Source of the DNA: Pedobacter sp.
Lineage (GTDB): Bacteria; Bacteroidota; Bacteroidia; Sphingobacteriales; Sphingobacteriaceae
Assembly: GCA_014378705.1 (NCBI GenBank)
Contig: JACMND010000054.1
Span: forward strand, 1 to 35,994
DNA length: 35,994 nucleotides
Direction of reading: 5' to 3'
In this document: positions 2,856 to 19,387 of the stretch, piece after piece
How positions within the stretch are numbered: position 1 is the first letter of the stretch
How the letters are laid out: the number at the start of each line of letters is the position of its first letter
The notes under the pieces: model-generated
Databases searched by the model: none
Told to the model about the DNA's origin: nothing
Seen by the model: the letters and a program-made list of their open reading frames with translations, nothing else
Translations under genes and position numbers: made by a program

Positions 2856-3968
2856 TTAATTAAACAAATTAACAAACCGCTCTATCTGCAGTTCAGGCTT
2901 GAACTTTTTAATTTGCCCGGGTATATGCTGAATATATAGATTCTGATTATTAATTACTGATTCCATTCCATCTGCCATCCGCTCTTTAGTTAATTCATCT
3001 AAAATAACCCCCGTTTTACCCACTACTTCAGGCAGCGCTGAAGAGCCAGACACAATAGATGGCTTTCCTTGATACATCGCCTCCAGAATTGGAATTCCAA
3101 AACCTTCGTATTTACTCAGGTATAATAAAGCAGTACAATTTTTAATATATTCTTCTTTCCTATTTTCATCAAGATAGCCAAGAAAAAAAATGTTTTGAGA
3201 ACTCGAAAGATTCTTTACGTACTGATATATCGCTTCGTAGTTCCAGCCCGGCTTACCGATAAGGTAGTATTTGTACTCCATATTTTGTGAATTTCGTTCT
3301 AAAAAGGTTATAAACCCATCAAGCATCAGTTCAATATTTTTTCCGGGTTCAATGGTACAAACCGTTATAAAAAAGGGCAAAGATGGGTTGTTCAAACTTA
3401 GTTTGGCATTCATAAAGTTGTAAACTACAGAAATTTTATCCGCACTTATGTCCGTCAGATTGATAATGTCAATTTTTGAAAATTCAGAAACCGTAATCAC
3501 CTTTGTCGAAAGCCTTGCACTGAGTACAGAGATGCTTTGAATATACTTCCCTCTAAAATATCCATACTTCTCTGGTATATGGAAAGGGATCATGTCATGT
3601 ATGGTACAAATAGTACGGGTTTTCGGGCTTAGAAATTTGGATAGTAACGGCACTACCGGGTTTGGTGCGAAATAGATGCATGGCTTTTGAACTAAAAGAT
3701 AAACCGGAAGTATCAGTTGTTCATAGAGAATTCTTAAAATTAAGAACCGATGAATAAAAGCAACCCTTTTAAATCTGATGTTGCTTACATAAGGCACATT
3801 AAATACCTTGGCAGTGTCAATATTTTTCGGGCAGAGGATTATAATTTTTGTGAACCGCTGGTAAAATCCGGAGTTTGACGGAAGTCCTTCAAATAACCGC
3901 TTCATGAAATACCCGGTGCCGGCAAGCTTACTGTCCCTGTAATTCAAGAGATTGATATATAAGTTCAT
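2856..3968 (-). CDS. Family 4 (GT-B) glycosyltransferase
   Basis: This 370-residue protein has the GT4 C-terminal signature. The EX7E motif is E288 to E296 in YEGFGIPILE, followed by GKPSIVSGSSALPEV, which forms the nucleotide-sugar site. IHDMIPFH at 123-130 is an N-terminal motif common in mannosyltransferase-like GT4 enzymes. A retaining transfer to the lipid-linked oligosaccharide is expected. Its ATG overlaps the end of the wzy gene by 4 bp, and its stop lies one base before the next GT2 start, so all are translationally coupled. A GDP-mannose or related donor is possible but unproven. Confidence 0.87.
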   Translation of the reverse strand: MNLYINLLNYRDSKLAGTGYFMKRLFEGLPSNSGFYQRFTKIIILCPKNIDTAKVFNVPYVSNIRFKRVAFIHRFLILRILYEQLILPVYLLVQKPCIYFAPNPVVPLLSKFLSPKTRTICTIHDMIPFHIPEKYGYFRGKYIQSISVLSARLSTKVITVSEFSKIDIINLTDISADKISVVYNFMNAKLSLNNPSLPFFITVCTIEPGKNIELMLDGFITFLERNSQNMEYKYYLIGKPGWNYEAIYQYVKNLSSSQNIFFLGYLDENRKEEYIKNCTALLYLSKYEGFGIPILEAMYQGKPSIVSGSSALPEVVGKTGVILDELTKERMADGMESVINNQNLYIQHIPGQIKKFKPELQIERFVNLFN

Positions 3969-5092
3969 GCTTTTTTAGGTAATTTAATAAGTAGTGCGGC
4001 CAAGATGTATTGTATAATTAAATAGCCGATTGTAAGAATACTTAAACCCCAATAGTAGAGCAGTGCTGATATTGAGTTTTTACCAGATTTTATGAAAATC
4101 TGATAGCAATATTGCCGGATAAAGCCGCTTAACATCCCAAAAAAAATAACCCCCGGAAATCCGAAATCAGCATACAACGAGCCTAACCCAAACGATGGCA
4201 TATAGTTGAGTGCAGCAAACTCTGGCAAAAAATCATAATTTAAAATGGCAAAACCATAGGCATATGGCTTGCCTTCCCAAATAATTCTGGGGATGAATTT
4301 ATAAAAAGAGGAAAAATAGATTTCACCCCAATAAAAATGTTTATCAGGCTTGGCTAATTCTTCAATAAGGAAAGATTGCTTCTCATAAATATCAAAATAC
4401 GTTACGGCCGTTAAATAAGGATTGTCCGCACCGCCGGTAGACTGCGCAAAATGGTAAAACACCAGAAGGAAAAATACTGGAATAGAGTATATGAAAATTG
4501 TACGGACCTTTAACATTTTATACTCTTCAAAATAAAGCAATAAAAAAAGCAATAAATTGAAGATTGCAAATTTGCTCCCGGAAAAGATGATAAAAAACAG
4601 TACAAAAGCGATATGGATTTTGAACCGCCGATAAGTGACCAAAAGGATAATTACCCCTATAAGTAAAAACGTTTTGCCCAACTCGTAAAACGATGCAAAT
4701 TTTGTGAACACAACTGTTTCGTAAAAACACCTGATTCCTGTTAGTGAGAAGCCGCATTGAAACAGGATACTCAGTGTAGGAATTAATAGCAAAAAACCGA
4801 TAATGATATTGAAATTCCCAATAAGTTTGCGATTCTTTACTTCTGGCAAAGTAAAAGATTTGAGTCTAGAAAAAGTGCCTACGAATAAACCGGTTACGTA
4901 CAAAATGATTACCATATTTGAAGCAAAAGATTCCTGCGAATCCGGGAGGACTTGTATTCTTATTATTTGAGGCAATACAAGGAAGATCAGTGAGAAGTGG
5001 GCCTCAAAAGTAAAAGGGTTCAGTAAAACGCCATACCTTAAATAAGAAAGATAGCATAGGATTAAAATGTAAATGAAAACAGTTATAATCAT
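3965..5092 (-). CDS. wzy: Oligosaccharide repeat-unit polymerase (Wzy-like)
   Basis: The 375-residue protein is almost wholly hydrophobic, with roughly ten predicted membrane spans. A more polar stretch around residues 215-300 contains many aromatic residues and is likely the large periplasmic loop. Wzy polymerases are recognised mostly by this topology and by position, because their sequences diverge quickly. Here the gene sits between two GT4 genes in a locus that also has a flippase, Wzz and Wza, and no other polymerase is present. It would join lipid-linked repeat units on the periplasmic side. It overlaps both neighbours by 4 bp. Confidence 0.75.
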   Translation of the reverse strand: MIITVFIYILILCYLSYLRYGVLLNPFTFEAHFSLIFLVLPQIIRIQVLPDSQESFASNMVIILYVTGLFVGTFSRLKSFTLPEVKNRKLIGNFNIIIGFLLLIPTLSILFQCGFSLTGIRCFYETVVFTKFASFYELGKTFLLIGVIILLVTYRRFKIHIAFVLFFIIFSGSKFAIFNLLLFLLLYFEEYKMLKVRTIFIYSIPVFFLLVFYHFAQSTGGADNPYLTAVTYFDIYEKQSFLIEELAKPDKHFYWGEIYFSSFYKFIPRIIWEGKPYAYGFAILNYDFLPEFAALNYMPSFGLGSLYADFGFPGVIFFGMLSGFIRQYCYQIFIKSGKNSISALLYYWGLSILTIGYLIIQYILAALLIKLPKKA

Positions 5093-6360
5093 TTAACAAG
5101 TAACCGTTTGACGGCCGCAATTTCTTTATCTAAACGGGTTTCCCAAGAGTAAAGTGCCTGAAATGCACCTTCTTTAAGATTTTGCTTGATCTGCGTTTGT
5201 TTAGCGTGGTCTTCCAACAGATCTTCAATATCTTGTGCAATGATTTGATATTGAACTTCTTCAACATCTTTGACATCATCAATCGGATATATCAATCCAG
5301 AAAAGCCATGCTTTATCCACTGACCGGTATCGCCGTTATCCAATGTTACGATCAGTTTATTCGCGTTTATTGCTTCCAGTAACGGGTTTCCCACATTTGA
5401 ACTTTCATACATCGAAATGAAAATATCAGATATCCCTAAATAATACTTCACCTTAGCTTGCGGTACGGCACCAGTAAAGCGAACGTAATCTTCTAATTTA
5501 AAATTTTCAACGAGTGCCTCAAATTGAGGTTTCATCGCTCCTTCACCAACTATTAAAAAGTATATATTTTTATAATTATGTTTGTTTACAATCTTATCCA
5601 AAACCCGAATACATCGATCTATTCTTTTATGATCATCCAGACGACTTACAGAAAGCATTAGCTTCTTATCTTCGGGAATGGATAACTCCTTTTTCAAATT
5701 TTCCAGGTCTGAATTAGTGCAATCAAACTTGTCAACCCCATTCACAAAAAAATAGAAATTCTTCAGGTGCTTAGAGCCTAGTTGTTTTAATATGTTGTTG
5801 CCCTGACTACCATCATTAGTGATAATACAAATATCGGATTTTGTCTTTAAGGCATAGAAAGTGTCTGCGTTGGAAATTTTACGGGCCCACTTTTTTTGAT
5901 TTAACCATTCTTTTACATAAAGCACGCCCTGAAAGCGGGCCACAATCTTTGCTTTTCCGGTTAAAGAAAGCAACTTTAGAAATCTGGCAGAAAGAAAGCC
6001 GAGCTGCTCATAGCCGTAAACCACATCAAATTCACGCTTCCGAAGAGTTCTGGCCCCAAAGTAAATCAACTGGCCTAAAGCCATATATCGCCGCAGACGG
6101 AATAAGATCTTAATTAATTTCTCGTTGGAGGCATTGTTAAGCATCGCAGTTAGCGGTGGGTAGACCCTGGTGAGCGCTAAGCCATTAATATTAATCTCTC
6201 GTTCGTAAAAGTAGTTTCCTTTGTTGGAGTTATCTCTTGAAACAATGTAATGCACCTCCCAGCCATCTCTAATGTAGGCCTCTGGGGTTTTTCTAATTAC
6301 CTGTATCGATTTTTCCTTGAAATCGTCGGCTGATAAAAACAATACACTTGGATTCTTCAC
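5089..6360 (-). CDS. Family 4 (GT-B) glycosyltransferase with modified EX7E motif
   Basis: The start codon is GTG (6358-6360), overlapping the preceding amidotransferase stop as GTGA. No upstream ATG fits, and the next Met is at residue 73. The 423-residue protein has a GT4 C-terminal half: VSRLDDHKRID around 238-248, then VGEGAMKP, and YESSNVGNPLLEA near 318-330. In this last motif the two glutamates (E319, E329) are nine residues apart rather than seven. The acceptor or donor subsite may therefore differ from standard GT4 enzymes. In the P. aeruginosa B-band locus, wbpG is likewise followed by a GT4 gene (wbpH), so it may transfer the amidinated uronic acid or a neighbouring sugar. Confidence 0.83.
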   Translation of the reverse strand: MKNPSVLFLSADDFKEKSIQVIRKTPEAYIRDGWEVHYIVSRDNSNKGNYFYEREININGLALTRVYPPLTAMLNNASNEKLIKILFRLRRYMALGQLIYFGARTLRKREFDVVYGYEQLGFLSARFLKLLSLTGKAKIVARFQGVLYVKEWLNQKKWARKISNADTFYALKTKSDICIITNDGSQGNNILKQLGSKHLKNFYFFVNGVDKFDCTNSDLENLKKELSIPEDKKLMLSVSRLDDHKRIDRCIRVLDKIVNKHNYKNIYFLIVGEGAMKPQFEALVENFKLEDYVRFTGAVPQAKVKYYLGISDIFISMYESSNVGNPLLEAINANKLIVTLDNGDTGQWIKHGFSGLIYPIDDVKDVEEVQYQIIAQDIEDLLEDHAKQTQIKQNLKEGAFQALYSWETRLDKEIAAVKRLLVK

Positions 6361-7478
6361 TTCTTCTTTAAAAGTTTTCTTAAAAGCCGGTTAACATTGA
6401 ACAGCCATTCGTCACTCTTATAATCAAGATGGGCTTTTGGCGGATTGTCCATTATTTCTTCAAACTCCTTTGAAGAAAATCCTAACTTTTTTAACACAAA
6501 TTCCTTATCTATTGTAAGCTCTAGTTGCTTATAAGCAGGGTTTTTAGTTTCTTCTAAAGCTTTTTCCCTAGATATCTCCCCATTTCTGATTTGTGCTGAA
6601 AGGTGAACCTTACGTTTATCATATCCAAACTTTTCGGGAAGGTAAAACGCCTGATAAAATTTAGTGAATGTTGATTCAAAATGCTTGCCGCCATAGTATT
6701 GCCAGCCAAACTCCTTATTAAGTTCTGCCATAGCCAATTCTTTGGAGTAATTTATTTTATTTAATGGCTCCAGATAAACTCCCCCAAGCCCGAGCTTTTT
6801 GGCAAGAATATACTTTATGGAATTCATGGTTGGAAACTGTGATATTTTTTTTGAACCAAATTTATTTTGAATATCTCTAATATTGACTAAATCCTGCTTC
6901 CGCCATATCCATCGAACAGGCATGCCGTGCTCCGTTGCATAATTGGTACCGGACAATATGTACTTTATTCCATGTTGTTTTCTTAATTTAAACATGGTTG
7001 CCATAATAGCGTGATCCGAAAGCATTTCAATATCTACTACACTTGCCTTAAAAAAAGATCTTTGAAGGTCTTTAAATTCAGGCCAATCAATTACATAAGT
7101 AGCTAAATCAAAGCCGCATTTATCTACAATCTTCTTGATATTAGATACCGCAATTTCTGAATTCCAGCCATTATCAAAATGAACACATAGAGCTTTAAGG
7201 TTTAATCTATGCGCAATTAAAGCAACGTATGAACTATCAACCCCGCCACTCAATCCAATAACGCAATCGTATTTTGTATTGGGATCAGAAGAAACAAGAT
7301 TTTTTATCCCCTGTAAATTTTGCTCTTCTTCTTTGGAGGTAAATTTTAGCCTGGGCAAGATATCTTTTGCTTCTATGCAATGATTACACACCCCTTCACT
7401 ATTAAAATTAATATCCGGATCTGAAGTATCCATTATACATTGTGAACAGATACGTATGTTATTAGATTGTTTATTCAT
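6357..7478 (-). CDS. N-acetyl sugar amidotransferase, WbpG/PseA family (second set)
   Basis: The 373-residue protein starts with a Cys4 zinc-ribbon-like module (C11, C14, C31, C34) and then the PP-loop SGGVDSS at 77-83, an ATP-pyrophosphatase signature. WbpG/PseA-type enzymes adenylate an N-acetyl amide oxygen and replace it with ammonia, giving an acetamidino sugar. Ammonia comes from a partner HisH glutaminase through a HisF barrel, and both genes lie immediately upstream. The order hisH-hisF-wbpG is the same as in the P. aeruginosa B-band locus, where the product is a 3-acetamidino-ManNAcA. Overlaps are 8 bp upstream and 4 bp downstream. I infer that this set acts on the WbpB/E/D uronic acid product. 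Confidence 0.88.
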   Translation of the reverse strand: MNKQSNNIRICSQCIMDTSDPDINFNSEGVCNHCIEAKDILPRLKFTSKEEEQNLQGIKNLVSSDPNTKYDCVIGLSGGVDSSYVALIAHRLNLKALCVHFDNGWNSEIAVSNIKKIVDKCGFDLATYVIDWPEFKDLQRSFFKASVVDIEMLSDHAIMATMFKLRKQHGIKYILSGTNYATEHGMPVRWIWRKQDLVNIRDIQNKFGSKKISQFPTMNSIKYILAKKLGLGGVYLEPLNKINYSKELAMAELNKEFGWQYYGGKHFESTFTKFYQAFYLPEKFGYDKRKVHLSAQIRNGEISREKALEETKNPAYKQLELTIDKEFVLKKLGFSSKEFEEIMDNPPKAHLDYKSDEWLFNVNRLLRKLLKKK

Positions 7479-8232
7479 GTAAAATGGATTCTAATTGGAT
7501 AGCAGTTGGGTAAGAAATCAACACCGCCCGATGTGGCCCATGATAAACAAAAATACTGCCTGCGGCAACAGCAGATGCCCCTGCAGCGATTGCTGCATTT
7601 AAGTCTGAGTAAGACGAAGCTCCACCACAAGCAATTAAAGGGATAGACAGGGAATGAGAAACTTTATTGATCAGATCTAAATCATAACCACTGTAAGAAC
7701 CATCTCTATCAACGCTATTTAAAAATATTTCCCCAACCCCAGCAGCCTCCAGTGTTTGGGCATAGTTCACAGGATCCAAAGAGTTTGATTTTCCCTTAAC
7801 ATGGTCGTATACATAAGTTTTGCCAAACAGGCTGTTCTTAACATCTACACCGCCAATTATGCTAGAACTTCCGAACTGTCTGGAAGCTTCTTTAAGCAAT
7901 GATAAATCAGTGAGGGATTGATGATTGATACCCACTTTTTCAATCCCTATTTTTAAAAGCATTTCTATTTGCTTAAGATTTTTAACGCCACCTGCATAGC
8001 TCAGGGGCATAAAACATTCAGAAGCAAGATCCTTGAGAGTTTCCCAATTGGGTTCTTTATTATGGCGTGATGCATCGATATCCATAAAAATCAACTCATC
8101 GACTTCCTTTTCGTTAAAAATCCTTAAAGCATTAATGGGATCACCGATATACTTGTATTTCTTAAACTTTTCGGTTTTAACTAGTCCACCGTCCCGAAGT
8201 AAAAGACAGGGTATGACTCTGTTTTTCAGCAT
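7471..8232 (-). CDS. HisF-like ammonia-channel subunit of sugar amidotransferase (second set)
   Basis: The 253-residue (beta/alpha)8 barrel aligns with imidazole glycerol phosphate synthase subunit HisF without gaps up to residue 130. HisF uses Asp11 and Asp130 as acid/base catalysts. Here residue 11 is Leu (IPCLLLRDGG) while Asp130 is kept (GGVDV). The loss argues against a role in histidine synthesis and for a role as ammonia conduit from HisH to WbpG. Phosphate-site features such as YAGGV and ACGGAS remain, so a phosphorylated or nucleotide ligand may still bind. The gene starts 6 bp after hisH and overlaps wbpG by 8 bp. Confidence 0.88.
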   Translation of the reverse strand: MLKNRVIPCLLLRDGGLVKTEKFKKYKYIGDPINALRIFNEKEVDELIFMDIDASRHNKEPNWETLKDLASECFMPLSYAGGVKNLKQIEMLLKIGIEKVGINHQSLTDLSLLKEASRQFGSSSIIGGVDVKNSLFGKTYVYDHVKGKSNSLDPVNYAQTLEAAGVGEIFLNSVDRDGSYSGYDLDLINKVSHSLSIPLIACGGASSYSDLNAAIAAGASAVAAGSIFVYHGPHRAVLISYPTAIQLESILHE

Positions 8233-8238
8233 TCCTTT

Positions 8239-8853
8239 CTAATATCTCTCAACAAAGTTTTTGAGTAATTTAAGACCAAATTTATGACTTTTTTCTGGAT
8301 GAAACTGAACACCCATTATATTATCCCGTTCAAAAGCCGAGACAAATTTTAGTCCATGGTGCGTCCATAACAAACTCTCCGTTTCGTTCTCACTTTCAAC
8401 ATAATAAGAATGCACAAAGTAAAATCTATTTTCATTTTCCGGGTCTTCAAGAAGCTTTGAGGATTTTGCCGGAATAACTTTATTCCAACCCATGTGTGGT
8501 ATTTTTAATTTAGACCCTTCATCAAAAGAAAACTTCTTAACCTTAGCATTCATCCAACCCAATCCGGGAAGCGCTCCTTCTTCACTACCTTTAGTCATTA
8601 ATTGCATTCCAAGGCAGATGCCAAGTACGGGCAATTTATCAGTTAAGACTTTCCGGTTTAGTATTTCAAGCCAGTTATTGTCAATTAAATGGCTCATCCC
8701 GGAATCAAAAGCGCCTACGCCCGGCAAAATTATCTTAGAAGCATCTTCCAATTGCTCAGGTTTATCAATTATCTCTGCTTCAACCCCTATTCGTTTCAGC
8801 ATGTTTTTAATGGAGCCCAAATTTCCGAGGCCATAATTTATAATGTGAATCAT
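8239..8853 (-). CDS. HisH-like glutamine amidotransferase (second set)
   Basis: This 204-residue class I glutaminase has the nucleophile Cys80 in LGICLGMQLM and the His185/Glu187 pair in FHPEKS, so the catalytic triad is complete. NYGLGNLGS at 6-14 and PGVGAFDSGM are standard HisH signatures. It would release ammonia from glutamine for the adjoining HisF-like barrel and WbpG-like ligase. It overlaps the preceding glycosyltransferase by 4 bp. The operon context and the changed HisF partner make amidination of a sugar far more likely than histidine synthesis. It is only moderately similar to the other HisH in the window. Confidence 0.9.
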   Translation of the reverse strand: MIHIINYGLGNLGSIKNMLKRIGVEAEIIDKPEQLEDASKIILPGVGAFDSGMSHLIDNNWLEILNRKVLTDKLPVLGICLGMQLMTKGSEEGALPGLGWMNAKVKKFSFDEGSKLKIPHMGWNKVIPAKSSKLLEDPENENRFYFVHSYYVESENETESLLWTHHGLKFVSAFERDNIMGVQFHPEKSHKFGLKLLKNFVERY

Positions 8854-10259
8854 TCAATATACCTCTTTATAAACTCCCCAAAATTAGCTTTCCAGGAATT
8901 TGCCCAAAAATAACCACTTAAGTCATTCATATCAAAACTGTAGGGATTAAATATACTTTCTATATTTTCAATTGTTATTTTAGGGATCTTAATGCCCTCT
9001 GTGATATATGTCCGGGTATAAGAGGAGTTAAAAAGGAAAACCGGAACCTTTACAGCCATTGCCTCAAAAAGCGCCGTTGAAGTTTCACCCACTATCATTT
9101 TTGATCTGCTAATGCTTTCATATAGGTCACTTTCCTTATCGATTATCAAGCCTTGTTTGATAAGCGCAGAATATTTTTCGTTAGCCTGTTTCATTTCCAA
9201 TGGGTGAGGTCGCAAAGTCAAGGTGAAGCCCTTATTAATTGCATACGGGATTAACCTGGAAAGAAAAGCTGAAGTTTCTTGAAATGTTATACCAGAGCTG
9301 AGAAATAGAATCTGATTATCTGCAACTTTTGGCTTTAACGCAGCAAGCTTCTCTGATAAGAAAGGATTCCCAATTACTATTTTTTGACCTGGAATTTTTA
9401 CTGCAGAGCTCCAGAAATCTCCGTACATAAGCAGGTAATCTGGATAGTAATCTTTTACAATCTTAATATTAAGCAAACCGTTTCCCAAATTATAGGCATG
9501 ATGCTCTTCGTTAACAAAGCCATGCTGAAGTTCGGCTACTGGAATTTTTAGAGAGTGGGCAGCTATAATAATATAGGAACGGCTTCCGTAGCTCCCATCT
9601 TCGACGAAGATTATCTTGGGCCGTTTCGCTTTAAAAAATTCTACATAGGTTTGAATCGAGGATTGAAATTCCAGGCAGTTCCGTTCAATAATATCCCTTA
9701 TTCTCTTCCAAGTTTTCTCTTGCAGTAATCTCCCAATTTTAAAACCAATGCTTTCTAAAAGTTCCTTAATTATTAACGAGTCGTCCAAATTTAACTTTGG
9801 TTTGTAAATTTTCCGGGAAATTGCAGACTTTAGTCTTAGTGGCAAATGAGCGTACACGTTCTTATGAACCCTGGGCCATCTTAGATGTTTATCTGCTGTA
9901 TCTTCAATTAAGGCAGCTTGATTTTCGATTTCAAAGTAAAAATAATCTGTTATACGATTAAAGTACCTACCCTCCTGGTTAAGAACATTGGTAATTCCAG
10001 AATTAAAAAAAAGTATGGATTTATTTTGAATTGACGTTGGAGGCTTGCTAAAACTCTGAACTAATGTCTTTACAATCTGGTACAGGCTGACCTTTGATTC
10101 TGAACGTGCGTTGCCCAAATCATTTTGCTCATTTAGAATTTCGAGGATAACTTGGAATCTTACCAATGGCCAAATCAAGTAGCCTTTGGATCCAAATTTA
10201 AACGCTAACAGGCTCTGATCCTCCTCAAGTAATTTTACTAATTCCGATGGACGCAACAT
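8850..10259 (-). CDS. GT-B-like transferase, candidate nonulosonate (legionaminic acid) transferase
   Basis: The 469-residue protein has no signal peptide and belongs to no family I can name with certainty. It has an acidic EDG motif at 220-222 (IIFVEDGSYG), LQHG at 244-247, RPHP at 350-353 and GETSTALFEA at 391-400. A D/E-D/E-G motif followed by an HP motif and a Ser/Thr-rich site is known from bacterial sialyltransferases (GT38, GT52, GT80). HG/HP combinations also occur in CDP-glycerol glycerophosphotransferases and in KpsC/KpsS-type capsule proteins. All of these use CMP- or CDP-linked donors. Because CMP-legionaminic acid is made in this operon and no other candidate transferase fits, I infer that this enzyme may transfer it. 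The function is unproven. Confidence 0.6.
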   Translation of the reverse strand: MLRPSELVKLLEEDQSLLAFKFGSKGYLIWPLVRFQVILEILNEQNDLGNARSESKVSLYQIVKTLVQSFSKPPTSIQNKSILFFNSGITNVLNQEGRYFNRITDYFYFEIENQAALIEDTADKHLRWPRVHKNVYAHLPLRLKSAISRKIYKPKLNLDDSLIIKELLESIGFKIGRLLQEKTWKRIRDIIERNCLEFQSSIQTYVEFFKAKRPKIIFVEDGSYGSRSYIIIAAHSLKIPVAELQHGFVNEEHHAYNLGNGLLNIKIVKDYYPDYLLMYGDFWSSAVKIPGQKIVIGNPFLSEKLAALKPKVADNQILFLSSGITFQETSAFLSRLIPYAINKGFTLTLRPHPLEMKQANEKYSALIKQGLIIDKESDLYESISRSKMIVGETSTALFEAMAVKVPVFLFNSSYTRTYITEGIKIPKITIENIESIFNPYSFDMNDLSGYFWANSWKANFGEFIKRYIE

Positions 10260-10314
10260 TTTAACTATTAATTTTAAGAATTAAAGAGTCAGGTCTATAA
10301 ACTTGTGCATTGTT

Positions 10315-11724
10315 CTAAACTTTTATTTTTTTGGAAAACCGGAAGCCCCAAATAAAAACCACCAGTAATATAGCGCAGGTCAGGATAAATTTAATTTCAA
10401 TACTTACTTCTCTTAAAGAAAATGCCATTGTCGTCGCGATAATAATGAAAATGAACCAGAACATTAATTCGAAACGATTAAAAGAGTGATTTTGGTTTTT
10501 TAGAAAATATCCCGCAAAACCCTGATACATCATGGCGACAAAAGTTGTATATGCCGCTGCCTGAAAGCCATAAAGCGGTATAAAAATAAAGTTCAGAAGA
10601 ATGTTTATTGCACCTGCAGCAAAACTTATTCTCCAAAGTTTGGATGTCTTTTCATCAAATTGGAGCTTGGTTATTACACTCCAGTAGAGTGGCCTGTATG
10701 AATAACTCATTACAATAATTATTGCTAAGGAATATGCCTCTGTTAAGCTTTGGTTGCGGATAAATATTGTAAAAAGTTCTTTGGACCATAGCGACACAAT
10801 GAAAGAACCCACTATAAACAAGAGCTGTAGAAGAATGGTTATCCTTTTTGCAATTAAAAGACCGCTGTTTTGTGGTTCATTGTAAAGCTTTAGGTAAATT
10901 GGACCTACTGCCATGCCGATGGAGTTGCCAATAACTTCTAAATAATTTCCCCACATATAAGCCACATTGTAGAGTCCAATCTGTGAAATCGGTGTATTAA
11001 AAGCCGAAAGCATTACCCTGTCTGATGCATTCAGCATGTAGGCTGAATAGCTGTGAGGAACCATCGGAAGAGCTACTTTGAACCGTGCTGCAGCCCATCG
11101 CAAACGAATCCTGGCGAGTGGAATTAGACGCATTTTATATAACAAAACGGCATAGATAAATGCCATAATGGCCAATGAACTGAAGGTTGCATAAAACCAA
11201 CCCATATAACCCATACTTTTTACCGCGATGAAATAATATTGCCCTCCAACTGCAATAAAGCCTGATAAAATTGACACAATGGATATCGCAAATGGTTTTT
11301 CAGCGGCCTGATAGTATCGTGATCCAATCAAGATAGGTACATCAAAAAAAACGCATTGAACTGCTAATAAAAGAATAATTTCCGGTCTATCAGATAAGGC
11401 TTCATCAGGAATTACCACATATAGTAATAGGGATTGGAAAATCGCGATTACGATACCCCAAAGCAGCAAATACCAAATAACTTGCCGCCAAACCCAAATC
11501 CAGCGGGTGGGGTGTTTGTAGTAGCTGTTGAACATAGGAACAACCATCCCTAAATCTCGGGCAGAAGAGAAAATTAAACTGTAAGCAACAATAGTTCCCC
11601 AAACGCCAAAATCCGTCTTAGAAAGATGAGGGGTAAGAAATGGTAGAAGAAAAAAGCCCACAATTTTAGGTAATTGAGGGCCAATTGCGTAAATAATTGA
11701 ATGAGAAAATACCTTTTTAATCAC
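10315..11724 (-). CDS. wzx: Oligosaccharide flippase (Wzx-like, MOP superfamily)
   Basis: This 469-residue polytopic protein has about 12-14 hydrophobic segments, an early IGPQLPKIVGFFLLPFLTPHL segment with the PxL..FGVW continuation seen in polysaccharide flippases, and no large soluble domain. Wzx moves the undecaprenyl-pyrophosphate-linked repeat unit across the inner membrane. The start is GTG at 11722-11724, overlapping the acyltransferase stop by 8 bp. No in-frame ATG exists until about residue 60, which would delete the first spans. A 55-bp AT-rich gap separates it from the next gene, one of the few breaks in the operon. Confidence 0.87.
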   Translation of the reverse strand: MIKKVFSHSIIYAIGPQLPKIVGFFLLPFLTPHLSKTDFGVWGTIVAYSLIFSSARDLGMVVPMFNSYYKHPTRWIWVWRQVIWYLLLWGIVIAIFQSLLLYVVIPDEALSDRPEIILLLAVQCVFFDVPILIGSRYYQAAEKPFAISIVSILSGFIAVGGQYYFIAVKSMGYMGWFYATFSSLAIMAFIYAVLLYKMRLIPLARIRLRWAAARFKVALPMVPHSYSAYMLNASDRVMLSAFNTPISQIGLYNVAYMWGNYLEVIGNSIGMAVGPIYLKLYNEPQNSGLLIAKRITILLQLLFIVGSFIVSLWSKELFTIFIRNQSLTEAYSLAIIIVMSYSYRPLYWSVITKLQFDEKTSKLWRISFAAGAINILLNFIFIPLYGFQAAAYTTFVAMMYQGFAGYFLKNQNHSFNRFELMFWFIFIIIATTMAFSLREVSIEIKFILTCAILLVVFIWGFRFSKKIKV

Positions 11725-12214
11725 AACGGGTTTTGTATCTAATCAGTTTTGCGGGAACTCCACCCACAATACTCCATGGTTCAACGTTCTTTGTTAAAAC
11801 GCTGTTAGCGCCGACTATAGAATTTTCTCCAATAATAACCCCGGGGTTAATAAACACATTTGCTCCAATCCACGCATAGTCTCCAATAATCACATCACCC
11901 ATTTTAATAGCTCTCTCTTCTTTAGAAAAATCCTGATCTGCAACATCCGAACATGTGTAAATCCGAACATTGTGACTGATTTGACTACGTTTTCCTATCA
12001 CAACTTTACAATTGTCGTAAGCTTGAATAGTTGAATAATCGCCTATGTAAGAGTTAGGTCCACAATCAATTTGCCCATTTCCATAAAACATAATGTTTAT
12101 ACCGTTGAACCTGAAAGCAGGGGATATATTATATTTACTCCTGTAGGATCTATAAATAACGCTTTGAAATTTTTGGTTTAAGGCAACTACTATTTTAGCT
12201 AAGAGGCGTAACAT
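11717..12214 (-). CDS. Left-handed beta-helix (hexapeptide) O-acyltransferase, WbbJ/WcaF-like
   Basis: The 165-residue protein is built of isoleucine/valine-led hexapeptide repeats from about residue 55 to 150, for example IGDYAWIGANVFINPGV and IGENSIVGANSVL. It ends in the usual VGGVPAKLI motif of maltose/galactoside-type acetyltransferases. SHNVRIYT around residue 84 contains the histidine expected to act as catalytic base. It probably O-acetylates, or less likely N-acylates, a sugar of the repeat using acetyl-CoA. It starts 3 bp after wbpG and overlaps wzx. The target sugar is unknown. Confidence 0.82.
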   Translation of the reverse strand: MLRLLAKIVVALNQKFQSVIYRSYRSKYNISPAFRFNGINIMFYGNGQIDCGPNSYIGDYSTIQAYDNCKVVIGKRSQISHNVRIYTCSDVADQDFSKEERAIKMGDVIIGDYAWIGANVFINPGVIIGENSIVGANSVLTKNVEPWSIVGGVPAKLIRYKTRCD

Positions 12215-12217
12215 GTA

Positions 12218-13405
12218 TTATTGCCTAATTTTATTTAAATCATTATTTGAAACAGATTGTATAAGCTTCCATTCCCCTTTTTCATTCTTTTTCCATAGGT
12301 GATCCGATCTCCAACTATTAATTACTTCCCAAAAGTAATCTTCTGTTATATCACAATATTCTAAAAAGGTCGCAAAGTACTTTTCAGGAAATTCTCCGTC
12401 AAATTTATTTACTAAAGCAACGCCCTCTTCTCTTGTGATGTGACCATCTCTTATTTCATGGGCAGTGTCAGAAGTACATCTTCCTAATCCAAATTTTATA
12501 TAGGCCAGGAAATAATGAAAGCCATCAATTTTGTCATCTAATGATGCATACTTGGAATAAGTACCCTCATTCCTTACCGGGTTAGCTTTAAAGCCGGTGT
12601 TCTCTACACAGTAGTAATAATTTTCCTGCGGCACCCACTTCTTATAGTAACCGTAAAAATGAATCTCAGCACCTAATTTATCTAATGACTCATTTGATGG
12701 GGGCATATACGGCACTAAATCCTCCTCCCGAACTCCGTACTTCACCAGGTCCTCGGGTCCTAAACCTGAAAAATAATGTTTTTTATGGTCTGACCTGTAG
12801 TCTCTGGTTGGATTAAAAGCATTTTTCATATCGCCTCCATATTCTACTTCACCGTTCTCTCCGTACATAATTAACGGTACCTGATGCTGCACGGCCACCT
12901 GAAGCGGAAAATTGGTTTGACCATAAATAAAAGGCTGAAAAGGATCACCCAAAATTTCAAAAGACAATTTAGTTAGCTTTTTATGAGTCTTCCCGGCAGG
13001 CGTTCCTAACACATTGGCCAAATCACCAATGCGGATCATATTATGTAAGTTTTGAAAGCCAATGTCTGTATATAGATGAGGCGCCCATGTAACAGTTATT
13101 GGGTTCATGTTATACTTGTGCTTTAATTCGTGCGCAATGTATGCAGCATCCTTTCCACCACTACAAGGCACTACCACATCATAACGTCCATCATTGCGAC
13201 GAAATCTATTTAAGAGTGTCAATAATTCCTTTTCTCTGTCACTCCAACTTATTTTATTTTTTTTAAATTCAGCAAAGTTACATGCCGAACAAACTCCATT
13301 TTCGTCAAAAGTAATCCGCGGACGCTGGTTTGAAATAGTGCATTGTGTACAATACTTGATCTCTGAAGATAACTTATATCTCTCTTGTGTATTCTTATGT
13401 TCCAT
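12218..13405 (-). CDS. N-acetyl sugar amidotransferase, WbpG/PseA family (first set)
   Basis: The 395-residue protein has a Cys4 module (C19, C22, C39, C42) and the PP-loop SGGKDAA at 82-88, as in WbpG, PseA and related sugar amidotransferases. It is longer than, and clearly distinct from, the second copy, including SGGKD instead of SGGVDSS. It also has a tyrosine-rich FYGYYKKW segment and a charged C-terminal tail. The gene follows hisF and hisH, which directly follow legF. The simplest reading is that this triad amidinates legionaminic acid, or its CMP form, to a 5- or 7-acetamidino derivative, as PseA does for pseudaminic acid and as found in Legionella and Campylobacter legionaminates. 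The substrate assignment is inference from position. Confidence 0.88.
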   Translation of the reverse strand: MEHKNTQERYKLSSEIKYCTQCTISNQRPRITFDENGVCSACNFAEFKKNKISWSDREKELLTLLNRFRRNDGRYDVVVPCSGGKDAAYIAHELKHKYNMNPITVTWAPHLYTDIGFQNLHNMIRIGDLANVLGTPAGKTHKKLTKLSFEILGDPFQPFIYGQTNFPLQVAVQHQVPLIMYGENGEVEYGGDMKNAFNPTRDYRSDHKKHYFSGLGPEDLVKYGVREEDLVPYMPPSNESLDKLGAEIHFYGYYKKWVPQENYYYCVENTGFKANPVRNEGTYSKYASLDDKIDGFHYFLAYIKFGLGRCTSDTAHEIRDGHITREEGVALVNKFDGEFPEKYFATFLEYCDITEDYFWEVINSWRSDHLWKKNEKGEWKLIQSVSNNDLNKIRQ

Positions 13406-13406
13406 G

Positions 13407-14048
13407 TTATGATTTACGATCTAAAAAATATTTATATATGCTTAAGCCGGTTTCGCCACTTTTTTCAGGGTGGAATTGAAATCCAAAAATATTTTCATTT
13501 TGAACGGAGGAACAATACTTAAATTCTTGATAATTGGTGTACGTCAAAATATCAGACTGAATTAAAGGTTCCGCATAATACGAGTGAACGAAATACATAA
13601 ATTCCATTTCTGAAATTTCACGCAACGGTGTATTTGCCCAATTACATCCCGCATTAATTAATCTATTCCAACCGATATGCGGAATTTTCATTTTTTTATC
13701 GTTAACCTTTTCAGGAAATCTTTTTATGACTCCGGGAATAAGTCCCAACCCTTTATTCATTCCAAACTCTTCACTCTCGTCAAACAACAACTGCATACCT
13801 AGGCATATTCCCATCAGCGGCTTTCCTGATTTTGCGAAATCCCTTATCACGGGCACTAGGTCGAGCTCTAAAAGGTGATTCATAGCGATTTTAAAAGCGC
13901 CTACGCCAGGTAAAATTACCGAATCTGCATTAATTATTTCTTCCTTATTGGAAGTGATAACAGGAGAAAAGCCAACATGATTGCATGCTTGCGCTATGCT
14001 GTAAAGATTACCTAAGCCATAGTCTATGATTACTACTTTCTTATCCAT
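13407..14048 (-). CDS. HisH-like glutamine amidotransferase (first set)
   Basis: I choose the ATG at 14046-14048 (213 residues, MDKKVVIIDYGLGNL). The longer reading starts with TTG four codons upstream and overlaps hisF, whereas HisH proteins normally begin just before this IDYG motif. In numbering from the longer form, the triad is Cys86 (MGICLGMQL), His197 and Glu199 (FQFHPEKSG), all intact. It supplies ammonia to the HisF-like barrel encoded just upstream and to the WbpG-like ligase just downstream. It starts 2 bp after the hisF stop. Gene order in this triad (F-H-G) differs from the second set (H-F-G). Confidence 0.9.
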   Translation of the reverse strand: MDKKVVIIDYGLGNLYSIAQACNHVGFSPVITSNKEEIINADSVILPGVGAFKIAMNHLLELDLVPVIRDFAKSGKPLMGICLGMQLLFDESEEFGMNKGLGLIPGVIKRFPEKVNDKKMKIPHIGWNRLINAGCNWANTPLREISEMEFMYFVHSYYAEPLIQSDILTYTNYQEFKYCSSVQNENIFGFQFHPEKSGETGLSIYKYFLDRKS

Positions 14049-14050
14049 TT

Positions 14051-14896
14051 CTATCGACAATAAATTTCTTTTGAGTGCAAATGTTCTTTTAGACTAATTA
14101 AATTAAAAGGTGCGAATTTACTAAAAGACCTGCCGCTCAAAATAAAATCGATATTCCCTTCTGTACTATTTTCCCAATTAGAAGTAAGATTTTTGATTGT
14201 ATCGTAATGCAAAACAGACGCCAGCGAAACAGCGTCCACAATTTCTGAATCAAGAAGCTCTTCAACATGCCGCTTTGTCCCGGCTCCTCCGTGAGCAATA
14301 ACCGGAATGGAAACCGAATTAGCAACAGCTCTTATCAGTTCTAAATCAAATCCACTACCTGTACCTTCATTGTCGACAGAAGTAATTACCAATTCACCAC
14401 ACCCTAATTGCTCTGCTTTTTTCGCCCAATCAATTACTTCAATTCCGGTTTGCTCTCGTCCATTATCTGTAAATGCGTAATACTTCCCATCCAAATCTTT
14501 AATGGCTTCTATGGTAATTACAATAGTTGATGATCCGAATTCTTCCGATGCTTCTTTTATAAATAAGGGATTCTTGATTGCTGCAGTGTTGATTGCTATT
14601 TTATCAGCGCCTGCTCTTAACATAGTATTAATATCCTGAAGGCTTCTTATACCTCCTCCCACTGTAATTGGAATAAATATACTTTTTGCCGTTTCAGATA
14701 TAATATCATGTAGGCTGTTACGATCATAAAGAGATGCCACCACATCCATAAACATTAACTCATCTGCACCGTGCTCATAATAATACTTAGCAAAGTCTGA
14801 GGGTTTACCAAGGACTCTTAAGCCCTCTAAATGTATCCCTTTAACCAAGTTTGGGCCTTTAATATCTAACCGGGGTATTATTCTAACTGTTTTCAT
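14051..14896 (-). CDS. HisF-like ammonia-channel subunit of sugar amidotransferase (first set)
   Basis: The 281-residue HisF-type barrel aligns with genuine HisF without gaps to residue 130. Asp11 is present (RIIPRLDIKG) but Asp130 is replaced by Glu (ITIEAI). This is the reverse of the other copy, which keeps Asp130 and lacks Asp11. TVGGG around 78-82 and HGGAG later preserve the phosphate-binding turns. A C-terminal extension of about 25 residues beyond the usual HisF length is present. The protein probably passes ammonia from HisH to WbpG rather than making imidazole glycerol phosphate. It overlaps the end of legF by 14 bp, tying the triad to legionaminate synthesis. Confidence 0.88.
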   Translation of the reverse strand: MKTVRIIPRLDIKGPNLVKGIHLEGLRVLGKPSDFAKYYYEHGADELMFMDVVASLYDRNSLHDIISETAKSIFIPITVGGGIRSLQDINTMLRAGADKIAINTAAIKNPLFIKEASEEFGSSTIVITIEAIKDLDGKYYAFTDNGREQTGIEVIDWAKKAEQLGCGELVITSVDNEGTGSGFDLELIRAVANSVSIPVIAHGGAGTKRHVEELLDSEIVDAVSLASVLHYDTIKNLTSNWENSTEGNIDFILSGRSFSKFAPFNLISLKEHLHSKEIYCR

Positions 14897-15581
14897 TTAA
14901 ATTTATATGGCAAAAGTATTCCGCAAGTTTCCAGTCGGCCATTGTATCAATATCAATACTTCTTTCTTCTGGCATAACTACTTTTTTAACGTTTTTAAAC
15001 TCACTTATTTTTGCTTTTTCAAGGGAAGTAACCCTCATTAAGTATATGGAACCATTAAAAGCGTATACAGGAGGACAATCCTGACGGCGCTGAAAATCAC
15101 CTTTTTTAGACTTTTCTAAAAAACCATAAGCATTTTCTTCAAACAGATTAAAGTATGGGTTTGCTTTAGACTCTTTAACAGTTACTACCATATCACAATC
15201 ATCATTGAACTCTGTGATTACATTCTTGAAATCCGTTTGGGATCTAAATGGGGAGGTAGGTTGTAATAATAAAACAGCATCAAATTCTTTGTTTTTTTCT
15301 TTGTAATGATTTAATGCGTGTAATAAAACATCATAAGAGCTTGAGCTATCTAAAGCTAAATGGCCCGGCCGCTTAAACGGGATATTTACCGTTCTTTCTT
15401 TTGCTATGGCTATCACTTGCTCATCATTGGTAGAAATACATAATTCATCTCCGAGACTCATGTTTTTCAGGGCAAAATCAATTGAATAAGAAATAAGCGG
15501 TTTGGTATTTAATATTTTTACATTTTTCCCAGGCAATCCTTTTGATCCTTCTCTCGCTGGTATCAGATACAATATTCTCAT
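14883..15581 (-). CDS. legF: CMP-legionaminic acid (acylneuraminate-type) cytidylyltransferase
   Basis: The 232-residue enzyme has the cytidylyltransferase P-loop-like motif PAREGSKGLPGKN at 8-20 and LLQPTSPFRSQ further on, both characteristic of NeuA, LegF and PseF. It activates the nonulosonic acid as its CMP derivative, the last step before transfer. Legionaminic acid is preferred over neuraminic or pseudaminic acid because legB, legC, legH, legI, legG and ptmE are all next to it. The gene has only the catalytic domain, without the esterase domain found in some NeuA proteins. It overlaps ptmE by 1 bp and hisF by 14 bp. Confidence 0.9.
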   Translation of the reverse strand: MRILYLIPAREGSKGLPGKNVKILNTKPLISYSIDFALKNMSLGDELCISTNDEQVIAIAKERTVNIPFKRPGHLALDSSSSYDVLLHALNHYKEKNKEFDAVLLLQPTSPFRSQTDFKNVITEFNDDCDMVVTVKESKANPYFNLFEENAYGFLEKSKKGDFQRRQDCPPVYAFNGSIYLMRVTSLEKAKISEFKNVKKVVMPEERSIDIDTMADWKLAEYFCHINLNENS

Positions 15582-16636
15582 TACAACTTAATATGTCTAA
15601 TGTCTTCTTGGGCTTTGGTGTAATCACTATACTTCCCGATATCGAGCCAATAACCTAATAGGGGATAGTGTACCATAATTTGATTTTTTTCTGCAATGAT
15701 TAAATCCATCATATCAGTGGCATTAAAAAAACAACCTTTAGCTAACAGCCTTTTCAATTCAAATTTCATTAAATAAATCCCTCCATTTGAATAATATGTA
15801 TAGCTGGGTTTCTCTTTAAATGCTGTCACAAAATGTTCTACGGTTTCTAAAACCGCATAGGGTATATTTACTTGGTAAGGAATGCTTGCTAAAGCCATGC
15901 TGGCATTATGCTCTTTAAAAAACCGGTAAAAATCTTCTATATCTATATTGGTGAGGATATCGGAATTCATTATTAGAATGTCCTCATAATTTACCTCATC
16001 AATTAAGGATAAAGCACCTAATGTGCCTAAAGCTTCTGTTTCTTCAATGTAATGTATATTAATTCCCTTAGATGAACCATCACCTAAATAATTTATAATT
16101 TGCTCTTTAAGATATTTTACACTGATAAAAATATCTTTTATCCCATAGAAAATTAACCTGTCAATATTATGTTCAATGATCGGCTTTTCACCAATTTTAA
16201 GCATGGGCTTAGGCTGAAAATCTGTTAGAGGGCGTAACCTTTCGCCTCTCCCCCCTGCCATAATAAGAGCCGCTACAGGAATCATAGTTATGGTTCTCTT
16301 AAGATCCAAAAGCTCTAACAACCTATATTGGTCGTCTAAAAGCGGAATCAAGTTTAGATCTGCCTTCCTGAAAGACTTTATTAAATCGAGATTATCATTG
16401 GAATTTTTTAAATACTTAAAACTCGTATTCATGAAAGATGCGATCGAATGAGATATTTCCAACCCGTTTAATAAGCCTCTCCTGATATCCCCATCTGTTA
16501 AAGAACCCACAATTTGTTCAGAATCATTCATTACGAATAATGTTCTGCTCACGTTATCCGGCAAAATATCCAATGATCTCAAGGCAACCCGGGCTTCCTG
16601 ATTAAAGTTAACTACATATGGTTGGCTATTGCTCAT
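15581..16636 (-). CDS. ptmE: CBS-domain sugar-1-phosphate guanylyltransferase (PtmE-like)
   Basis: The 351-residue protein has two parts. Residues 1-115 form a CBS pair, with GSLTDGDIRRGLL at 44-56 as a typical CBS loop. Residues 118-351 are a nucleotidyltransferase with GGRGERLRPLT at 128-138 and PKPMLKIG. In Campylobacter jejuni, PtmE of this architecture makes the GDP-linked glucosamine that commits carbon to legionaminic acid rather than to UDP-sugar pools. The CBS domains suggest control by an adenine or guanine nucleotide. The gene overlaps legG by 11 bp and legF by 1 bp. GTP use is inferred from the family. Confidence 0.85.
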   Translation of the reverse strand: MSNSQPYVVNFNQEARVALRSLDILPDNVSRTLFVMNDSEQIVGSLTDGDIRRGLLNGLEISHSIASFMNTSFKYLKNSNDNLDLIKSFRKADLNLIPLLDDQYRLLELLDLKRTITMIPVAALIMAGGRGERLRPLTDFQPKPMLKIGEKPIIEHNIDRLIFYGIKDIFISVKYLKEQIINYLGDGSSKGINIHYIEETEALGTLGALSLIDEVNYEDILIMNSDILTNIDIEDFYRFFKEHNASMALASIPYQVNIPYAVLETVEHFVTAFKEKPSYTYYSNGGIYLMKFELKRLLAKGCFFNATDMMDLIIAEKNQIMVHYPLLGYWLDIGKYSDYTKAQEDIRHIKL

Positions 16637-18766: not shown

Positions 18767-19387
18767 TTATACAGTTCGTTGTCCTGGATTACCATAAATG
18801 ATGGCGTTATCTGGAATATTTTTCACGATAACGGAGCCAGCTCCAACAATTACATTTTCTCCAATTATCATCCCTTCTCTAATAGTAGCATTCGCACCAA
18901 TAAAAGAATTTTTCCCAATACTAACATTGCCTGCAATTGCAGCCCCGGGTGCAATATGAACGAAATCACCGATTTCACACTCGTGCTCTATTATGGCTCC
19001 GGTATTAATTATAACCCCCTTCCCAATAAAAGCCAAAGGATTAATTAGTGAACCAGCCATAATCGTTATTCCTTCAGATAAAGAAACTTTTGATGCTATT
19101 GTTGCCTTGGGGTGAATGGCATTAAAGGAATTAAAGGATCGACTTTTTAAATAGGTGTATACTTTTCTTCTAACCATGTTGTTACCTATTGAAACAACAA
19201 AATTGTTTGTGCTCAAAATTTTAGATGATACCTCATTGTATTCGTCCCCTAAATAAGGAAGATTAAATGGGTTATTCGCTTTAGTAACTTTTTCCATATA
19301 TCCAGATATGGTGCATCCTTGCTGAAATAAAATATCAGCAACTACAAATGCGTGCCCGGAATAACCAACAAGGATTACATTATCCAT
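18767..19387 (-). CDS. legH: NeuD/PglD-type sugar N-acetyltransferase
   Basis: The 206-residue protein starts with a Rossmann-like sugar-binding module (VILVGYSGHAFVVADIL at 4-20). It continues as a left-handed beta-helix of hexapeptide repeats. His135 in IIEHECEIG is the position of the catalytic base in PglD, and His144 follows in the acetyl-CoA region. It would N-acetylate the 4-amino group made by LegC, giving the 2,4-diacetamido-trideoxy sugar. It ends with the usual YGNPGQ motif. The stop of legC directly abuts its ATG. O-acetylation of the finished nonulosonate (NeuD role) is a less likely alternative. Confidence 0.87.
   Translation of the reverse strand: MDNVILVGYSGHAFVVADILFQQGCTISGYMEKVTKANNPFNLPYLGDEYNEVSSKILSTNNFVVSIGNNMVRRKVYTYLKSRSFNSFNAIHPKATIASKVSLSEGITIMAGSLINPLAFIGKGVIINTGAIIEHECEIGDFVHIAPGAAIAGNVSIGKNSFIGANATIREGMIIGENVIVGAGSVIVKNIPDNAIIYGNPGQRTV

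Follow-up and report, generated by a model that had tools for sequence, protein, structure and literature searches.

Two sugar-amidotransferase triads from separate branches in one surface-polysaccharide operon of Pedobacter

Two triads in one operon

Why should one polysaccharide operon carry two complete gene sets for the amidination of an N-acetyl sugar? The question is raised by a contig of 35,994 bases (C166; JACMND010000054.1) in a 3.3-Mb Pedobacter sp. assembly of 209 contigs (GCA_014378705.1); this entire contig was analyzed and is called the window here. It holds two complete WbpG-HisH-HisF triads in one operon, with all six genes open and on the minus strand. The explanation we consider probable is a Wzx/Wzy-type operon for a surface polysaccharide in which two systems amidinate sugars independently, one for legionaminic acid (Leg) and one for the sugar made by homologs of WbpB, WbpD, and WbpE, both sugars being placed in one repeat. 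Gene content, motifs, separate clades, conserved neighborhoods, and the predicted fold of the second WbpG are its basis, from which we infer the substrates, the nitrogen that is modified, and the sharing of one polymer by both sugars. The triad genes are listed here, with branches as defined in the next section.

14051-14896, minus strand: hisF1, HisF-like subunit of triad 1; 281 aa; WbuZ 273.3 bits (cut-off 299.7)
13407-14060, minus strand: hisH1, glutaminase of triad 1; 217 aa from TTG, 213 aa from ATG at 14045
12218-13405, minus strand: wbpG1, N-acetyl sugar amidotransferase (NASAT), putative nonulosonate branch; 395 aa; by profile, match to structure 8wex, and tree
8239-8853, minus strand: hisH2, glutaminase of triad 2; 204 aa; TIGR01855 236.7 bits and motifs
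7471-8232, minus strand: hisF2, AglZ/HisF2-family subunit of triad 2; 253 aa; NF038364 351.2 bits
6357-7478, minus strand: wbpG2, NASAT, putative hexosamine branch; 373 aa; by profile, tree, and AlphaFold model

These open reading frames and their profile matches confirm the original prediction of two complete triads, in the orders hisF-hisH-wbpG and hisH-hisF-wbpG, together with its lengths and PP-loops (SGGKDAA in WbpG1, SGGVDSS in WbpG2), the 213 residues given for HisH1 holding only for the ATG start. The triads lie in a run of 25 minus-strand genes that starts at 24290 and ends at 264, neighboring genes being -14 to +55 bases apart; Wzz-like and Wza-like genes lie upstream. In the order of transcription, the run starts with wbpE, wbpD, and wbpB, followed by legB, legC, legH, legI, legG, a ptmE-like gene, and a legF-like gene. 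Next come hisF1, hisH1, and wbpG1, a hexapeptide transferase gene, a probable flippase gene, and the gene at 8850-10259, then hisH2, hisF2, and wbpG2, and finally glycosyltransferase genes, a probable polymerase gene, and a gene for a short-chain dehydrogenase/reductase (SDR). The run probably forms a single transcript; scans of the window for promoters and terminators gave sites no more numerous than in shuffles.

Against NCBIfam TIGR03573 (‘N-acetyl sugar amidotransferase’; curated cut-off 203.2 bits), WbpG1 scores 343.0 bits (E 2.3e-102) and WbpG2 280.4 bits (E 2.5e-83), and both glutaminases pass the cut-off of TIGR01855 (105.4), HisH1 with 213.9 bits. HisF2 is above the cut-off of its acetamidino-modification family NF038364 (310), and HisF1 is under that of WbuZ and that of hisF (266.5 versus 294.55). 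The tetracysteine motif of NASATs, CxxC...CxxC (PMC10607449; papers are cited here by PMC number from excerpts of their text), is present as C19/C22 and C39/C42 in WbpG1 and as C11/C14 and C31/C34 in WbpG2. GICLGMQ and FHPE motifs occur in both HisH1 and HisH2. At the positions of D11 and D130 in the HisF of histidine synthesis, which we take to be the catalytic residues, HisF2 has L at 11 and HisF1 has E at 130; since neither keeps both aspartates, neither looks like the histidine enzyme. Histidine biosynthesis was rejected as a role for the triads on these aspartates and on gene context.

Structure comparison bears on WbpG2, whose sequence match to 8wex is marginal (E 4e-5). Its AlphaFold model (mean predicted local distance difference test score 91.3) aligns with 8wex over 318 residues at Z 25.3 and a root-mean-square deviation of 3.2, the next entry scoring Z 12.6, and the model thus predicts a NASAT fold.

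Two branches of amidotransferases

How are the two WbpG copies related? Their global identity is only 28% (HisH 42%, HisF 32%). In a phylum sample of 395 genomes, 54, the source included, carry a NASAT over the cut-off, and stretches were fetched for 52 of the 53 others (G293 was omitted). One tree has 72 rows, namely 69 amidotransferases of these 52 genomes, the two window copies, and Legionella 8wex; the other has 164 rows, excluding 8wex and any row shorter than 280 aa or below 100 bits to both window copies. Both are quick trees with the Shimodaira–Hasegawa-like approximate likelihood ratio test (SH-aLRT) as their only support, built without WbpG of Pseudomonas aeruginosa, WbuX of Escherichia coli O145, and PseA and PtmG of Campylobacter. 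Neighboring genes were labeled within 10 kb (164-row tree) or 20 kb (72-row tree), a procedure that misses genes cut by the ends of a stretch.

The deepest split of the 72-row tree separates the window copies (SH-aLRT 99), and constraining them together costs 298 log-likelihood units (approximately unbiased test, p-AU 1.6e-51). In the 164-row tree, they fall into branches of 37 rows (WbpG1) and 127 rows (WbpG2), with SH-aLRT 100. A recent duplication of the triads, which the original prediction had discounted, is ruled out by the identity between the WbpG copies, their separate branches, and the constrained tree; a grouping of both in one substrate clade, named beforehand as the refutation, did not occur.

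The neighborhoods of the two branches also differ. NeuB lies within 10 kb of 29 of the 37 rows in the WbpG1 branch and of 8 of the 127 in the WbpG2 branch (Fisher 6.6e-18), and PseB of 10 of the 37 and none of the 127. WbpB is near 34 of the 127 rows in the WbpG2 branch and 2 of the 37 in the other (Fisher 0.006). FnlA shows no significant difference (14/127 versus 2/37; Fisher 0.53), 12 of the 14 rows lying within one 17-row clade. Compared with shuffles, NeuB, WbpB, and FnlA cluster on the tree (16, 18, and 6 changes; shuffle minima of 29, 27, and 13) and PseB does so no better (9 changes; minimum 8, mean 9.8). Judged from these neighborhoods, the WbpG1 branch is the nonulosonate branch and the WbpG2 branch the hexosamine branch.

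Triad 1 and legionaminic acid

Triad 1 adjoins the legF-like gene at the end of the following set.

20542-21540, minus strand: legB 4,6-dehydratase; TIGR04180 495.6 bits (cut-off 475)
19388-20545, minus strand: legC aminotransferase; TIGR04181 537.7 bits (cut-off 420)
18767-19387, minus strand: legH-like sugar N-acetyltransferase (NeuD family); TIGR03570 211.9 bits (cut-off 160.8)
17741-18763, minus strand: legI (NeuB family); TIGR03569 476.1 bits (cut-off 399.65)
16626-17744, minus strand: legG (NeuC family); TIGR03568 364.6 bits (cut-off 235.9)
15581-16636, minus strand: ptmE-like nucleotidyltransferase, PtmE being our presumed name; nucleotidyltransferase families, none shown over cut-off
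14883-15581, minus strand: legF-like CMP-sugar synthetase; PseF 133.8 bits (cut-off 205.7)

LegB, LegC, LegG, LegI, and the NeuD-type acetyltransferase are all above NCBIfam curated cut-offs, TIGR03568 and TIGR03569 being general NeuC and NeuB models that are not specific for Leg; PseF, under its cut-off, is the best match of the candidate CMP-Leg synthetase. WbpG1 matches the crystallized Legionella lipopolysaccharide enzyme 8wex at E 5.5e-107 over residues 5-391 of 395, a match through which a NASAT fold can be assigned to it as well, and in the 72-row tree it shares an 11-row clade with 8wex (SH-aLRT 100). Within 20 kb of the other nine rows of this clade, three have LegB, two have PseB or FnlA only, and four have none of the three. 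Because triad 1 groups with 8wex and adjoins over-cut-off LegB, LegC, LegI, and LegG, its predicted product, Leg5Am7Ac, is well supported, as is the earlier assignment of this triad to legionaminic acid.

The closest known system is that of Legionella pneumophila (PMC10607449), which WbpG1 resembles in its near-full alignment, its clade, and its legionaminic setting. WbpG1 differs in lacking the insertion of about 15 residues found in 8wex (residues 55-69; PMC10607449) and in having SGGKDA, and the window in having a second triad. The ptmG homolog of Legionella is assigned the step from CMP-Leg5Ac7Ac to CMP-Leg5Am7Ac (PMC3766260), and 8wex is probably this homolog, ORF28.

Triad 2 and the WbpB/D/E sugar

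What, then, does the second triad modify? At the head of the run lie three candidate genes for its substrate.

23148-24290, minus strand: wbpE-like aminotransferase; WbpE chain 3nyu, E 1.5e-95
22577-23155, minus strand: wbpD-like hexapeptide acetyltransferase; family match and operon place only, with wbpB and wbpE
21540-22577, minus strand: wbpB-like 3-dehydrogenase (Gfo/Idh/MocA); 3q2k E 5e-53, 3q2i E 8.6e-53

A search with WbpG2 for named relatives gave 79 loci from the best 80 of 568 places; a wider check for WbpB covered 30 of these loci (29 genomes), and extended cluster reading covered 8 genomes. Among the matches listed, the named relatives closest to WbpG2 include genes 63% identical to it in Pedobacter cryoconitis and Chitinophaga hostae and 61% identical in Taibaiella koreensis. 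In the 164-row tree, WbpG2 sits in a six-row clade (SH-aLRT 97), and four of its five relatives there have WbpB in the same cluster, within 10 kb in L100, L101, and L102 and at 16.6 kb in Taibaiella. In P. cryoconitis and C. hostae (L100 and L101), WbpA-WbpE-WbpD-WbpB and the triad lie within about 11 kb, with identities to the window of 75-82% for WbpB (82% in P. cryoconitis), 70-73% for WbpD, and 60-61% for WbpE. The 21 kb fetched for each hold no nonulosonate, FnlA, or PseB match, save one SDR in L101 (Chitinophaga), which matched LegB best among the queries (26%). Since the closest relatives of WbpG2 share a cluster with WbpB, WbpD, and WbpE 60-82% identical to those of the window, triad 2 likely acts on a sugar of the 2,3-diamino-glucose type. 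FucNAm and pseudaminic acid (Pse) were rejected as substrates, neither FnlA nor PseB having a match in the source genome at E 1e-60.

In a tree of WbpB, the window gene groups with those of G012, G308, G042, G045-C33, G166, G026-C1:49 kb, G191, and G297 (SH-aLRT 99), and L052 (G045) and L071 (G117) form long branches that belong to neither of the two main groups. A second WbpB type is found in L053, L054, L057, L060, and L072, often near amidotransferase genes, and G026 has both types.

Two known systems can be compared with triad 2. P. aeruginosa, which makes ManNAc3NAmA with WbpG-HisH2-HisF2 and WbpA/B/E/D/I, shares the HisF2 family, the WbpE match to 3nyu, and the presence of a triad and WbpB/D/E in one operon; its WbpG is outside our trees, and, unlike in P. 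aeruginosa, no wbpA-type or WbpI/WecB gene was found in the window's assembly, so a gluco and perhaps non-uronic product is suggested. E. coli O145 WbuX and other FucNAm systems belong to the same family, TIGR03573, but FnlA-linked rows are mostly in their own 17-row clade (SH-aLRT 100), and FnlA was not found in the source genome. In a screen of Sphingomonas LM7 for changed colony morphology, one cluster was repeatedly disrupted by insertions, and the genes found encode a nucleotide-sugar dehydrogenase, an aminotransferase, a WxcM acetyltransferase, an MviM dehydrogenase, WbuX, HisF2, and HisH (PMC11340318). By analogy, this screen may count as independent genetics in favor of a linked WbpB/D/E-type sugar and triad, its WbuX being taken by name and not by clade.

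Recurrence of the double arrangement

The original prediction implied that the arrangement is rare, a view that other genomes contradict. Two or more NASATs over the cut-off lie within 25 kb on one contig in 13 of the 54 NASAT-bearing genomes (G000, G026, G033, G079, G124, G187, G188, G205, G217, G224, G239, G311, and G383), and both complete triads are present in at least 6 of the 79 named loci (L098, L113, L117, L118, L145, and L176; a set chosen for the WbpG2-type gene), a lower bound given that 33 of the other 73 are shorter than 21,000 bases at contig ends. These counts rule out rarity; hisF1 of L118 was found in the extended cluster reading. Two complete triads, one per branch, are present in G000, G187, and G224; those of G383 are both of the nonulosonate branch.

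Five of the six named double-triad loci have a WbpB homolog within 17 kb, at 80% identity in Taibaiella, 46% in a Chitinophagaceae metagenome-assembled genome (MAG), and 32-35% in the others. Taibaiella koreensis (NZ_QVNU01000002.1; L098, L177-L179) follows the order of the window, WbpE-WbpD-WbpB-LegB-LegC-LegI-LegG-PtmE-LegF-HisF1-HisH1-WbpG1 ... Hexap-Wzx-HisH2-HisF2-WbpG2, with WbpG1 83% and WbpG2 61% identical. It differs in a wbpA-type gene directly upstream of wbpE, in that no LegH match was found there, and in having a 22% match to the 8850-10259 gene before the flippase rather than after it. Leg genes, both triads, and WbpB/D/E homologs share one cluster in Roseateles, Sphingorhabdus, and the Chitinophagaceae MAG; MAG SP317 has the same content, but its nonulosonate genes, 27-38% identical to those of the window, are of unsure kind. 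In the 51 kb read for Pontibacter, WbpE-D-B, Leg genes, and triad 2 are present and triad 1 was not seen, and a Pirellula MAG has both triads and Leg-type genes, with weak WbpB matches on other contigs.

Other combinations were also observed. The clusters of G026 (L054/L055) and G239 (L057/L058) each hold three NASATs over the cut-off, two of them near WbpB/D/E, and may serve to amidinate three sugars or to accept alternative substrates. A single HisH/HisF pair stands beside two nonulosonate-branch NASATs in L029 (G124, a Leg cluster) and in L033 (G079), L049 (G217), and L032 (G311), which bear PseB; such clusters may amidinate one nonulosonic acid twice, or the two enzymes may draw ammonia from the one pair.

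In the literature, three NASAT sequences are reported from Vibrio vulnificus, and several per species are on record (PMC10607449), and in one review each repeat seen has a single amidine sugar (PMC3210612). Neither paired triads in a cluster nor a double-amidine repeat was recognized as a topic in the open-access texts as excerpted, weak evidence of absence given that most carbohydrate-structure journals lie outside them.

Proposed explanation and alternatives

In the proposed mechanism, glutamine would be the source of ammonia, released by HisH and handed on by a HisF-like barrel no longer capable of histidine chemistry, and the WbpG-type PP-loop enzyme would use ATP to replace the N-acetyl oxygen with NH, giving an acetamidino group. 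Triad 1 would convert (CMP-)Leg5Ac7Ac, made by LegB/C/H/G/I/F, to Leg5Am7Ac, and triad 2 would convert the UDP-2,3-diacetamido sugar from WbpB/E/D to its 3-acetamidino form. The latter sugar would be gluco, and uronic only if a UDP-GlcNAc 6-dehydrogenase exists; both amidinated sugars would then enter one repeat.

Several observations weigh against this scheme. In the source assembly, no wbpA-type gene was found at E 1e-60, whereas 19 of 19 other genomes carry two or three nucleoside diphosphate (NDP)-sugar dehydrogenases at that threshold and, in a second comparison, 9 of 10 carry two or more; nor was WecB/WbpI (TIGR00236) found over its cut-off, legG being the sole hit. The PP-loop of WbpG1, SGGKDA, departs at its last residue from the family motif SGGXDS, to which SGGVDS of WbpG2 conforms; this is the sole departure among the motifs checked in both triads. 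NeuB lies near some rows of the WbpG2 branch, as counted above. The WbpB genes 1.0-6.4 kb from triad-2-branch genes in G391, G239, G026, and G033 are of another clade than that of the window, so part of the association between WbpB and this branch concerns the other WbpB type; conversely, the window's type lies near an FnlA-type amidotransferase in G012 and G308. Given these contexts and the separate WbpB clades, WbpB/D/E and triad 2 are not obligate partners. Within the six-row clade, L099 (a contig of 9 kb) comes from a genome in which the WbpB matches are all weak, and 6 of the 29 genomes behind the named loci have no WbpB match at 1e-15. One of these, Gelidibacter (L157), has its triad-2 set near Leg genes, a case that lowers our confidence slightly while leaving the scheme probable.

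The Gelidibacter locus, like G042, has Leg genes close to a triad-2-type set, triad 1 not being seen, and would suit a different explanation, in which both triads act on legionaminic acid, at the C5 and C7 nitrogens, to give a di-amidino nonulosonate. The paired NASATs around one HisH/HisF pair in G124, G079, G217, and G311 are a precedent of a kind, but they pair enzymes of the nonulosonate branch, while WbpG2 belongs to the hexosamine branch with its few NeuB neighbors, and L100 and L101 lack nonulosonate genes apart from the SDR already mentioned; we regard this explanation as distinctly unlikely. Somewhat less so, though still unlikely, is that a third N-acetyl sugar of the repeat serves as the substrate of triad 2, for example at the 2-N-acetyl group of QuiNAc, D-FucNAc, or a HexNAc uronate made by off-contig genes, and that the WbpB/D/E sugar is not amidinated. 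C2 amidines of GalNAcA and FucNAc are on record (review PMC3210612), an SDR is encoded at the operon end (264-1163), and G187 has triads 1 and 2 without a WbpB match at 1e-30. Set against these are the missing FnlA match in the source genome and the WbpB/D/E of the window's own type retained by the closest relatives of WbpG2.

WbpB/D/E could instead serve another structure. WbpA/B/E/D help to make the linking sugar in Porphyromonas and Tannerella (PMC7468200), and a type IX secretion anchor sugar (Wbp/Vim pathway) would then replace the repeat-unit sugar. In the window, however, these genes stand first in the 25-gene run that also encodes the Leg enzymes, glycosyltransferases, and both triads, and a similar linkage is found in Taibaiella and Pontibacter and, with 32-55% identical genes, in Roseateles and Sphingorhabdus, making an anchor sugar very improbable. 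Least to be expected is a non-functional or spare triad, with a single amidine made: the A in the PP-loop of WbpG1, where the family motif ends in S, might hint at this, but the six genes are open, with CxxC pairs, SGGxD core, and glutaminase motifs, and both triads are kept together in the named double-triad loci.

Uronic acid and charge

Is the second sugar an acid, and what would this mean for charge? The source genome has one NDP-sugar dehydrogenase over the cut-off, whose best matches among solved structures are UDP-glucose dehydrogenases, and a query with Taibaiella WbpA returned only this same gene, at 26%. The P. cryoconitis and C. hostae clusters have wbpA in the interval from wzz to wbpE, which in the window is only 107 bases long; because the contig is unbroken there, wbpA is absent from this site, though it may lie in unassembled sequence. 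As the assembly yielded neither a wbpA-type nor a WbpI/WecB gene, both ‘uronic’ and ‘manno’ are unproven for the WbpB/D/E sugar. The original prediction of a 2,3-diamino-uronic acid as the substrate of triad 2 is thus upheld for the WbpB/D/E sugar, by the clusters of relatives, and not for its uronic character.

At neutral pH, acetamidino groups are protonated; both Leg and a diamino-uronic acid bear a carboxylate. Each amidinium being balanced by a carboxylate, established chemistry makes Leg5Am7Ac zwitterionic, and an amidinated diamino-uronic acid likewise; the unusual positive charge originally proposed for the polymer does not follow and would arise only if the WbpB/D/E sugar is unoxidized at C6. 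Were the genome truly without wbpA, the product of WbpB/D/E and triad 2 would be UDP-2-acetamido-3-acetamidino-2,3-dideoxyglucose, a non-acidic and hence cationic sugar giving, together with zwitterionic Leg5Am7Ac, a net positive repeat at the extreme of a class of doubly amidinated polysaccharides spread across Bacteroidota and Proteobacteria; this is a tentative idea that we think unlikely.

Other features of the window

The remaining features can be listed as follows.

10315-11724, minus strand: probable Wzx flippase, its gene located between triad 1 and triad 2; no Pfam match at 1e-3; suggested by hydrophobic sequence and place
3965-5092, minus strand: probable polymerase (Wzy); no Pfam match at 1e-3; suggested by hydrophobic sequence
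1168-1995, 2030-2851, 2856-3968, and 5089-6360, minus strand: glycosyltransferases; Pfam search
264-1163, minus strand: SDR epimerase/reductase; Pfam search
24398-25525, minus strand: Wzz-like, upstream of the 25-gene run
25525-28041, minus strand: Wza-like export protein, upstream of the 25-gene run

The 469-aa protein of 8850-10259, encoded between the flippase gene and hisH2, has no Pfam match at 1e-3 and below-cut-off matches to surface-carbohydrate and glycosyltransferase models; its position suggests a glycosyltransferase. At 28147-28470 lies a lone gene for a 107-aa nucleotidyltransferase (Polbeta/NTP_transf_2), flanked by the Wza-like gene and a GDP-mannose 4,6-dehydratase gene, for which no partner was noted in the list of open reading frames of the window.

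Implications

Amidinated sugars alter surface charge and antigenicity, and which WbpG homolog takes which sugar is poorly known. Each part described here was already known and the combination recurs; together the parts give an amidination operon of two apparent specificities with a testable double-amidine prediction. As amidotransferases of the nonulosonate and hexosamine branches stand in one pathway, single deletions would separate their specificities, and the double-amidine repeat is also predicted for cultured species, Taibaiella koreensis among them. More broadly, the patterns of branch and neighborhood may allow acetamidino sugars to be predicted from genomes.

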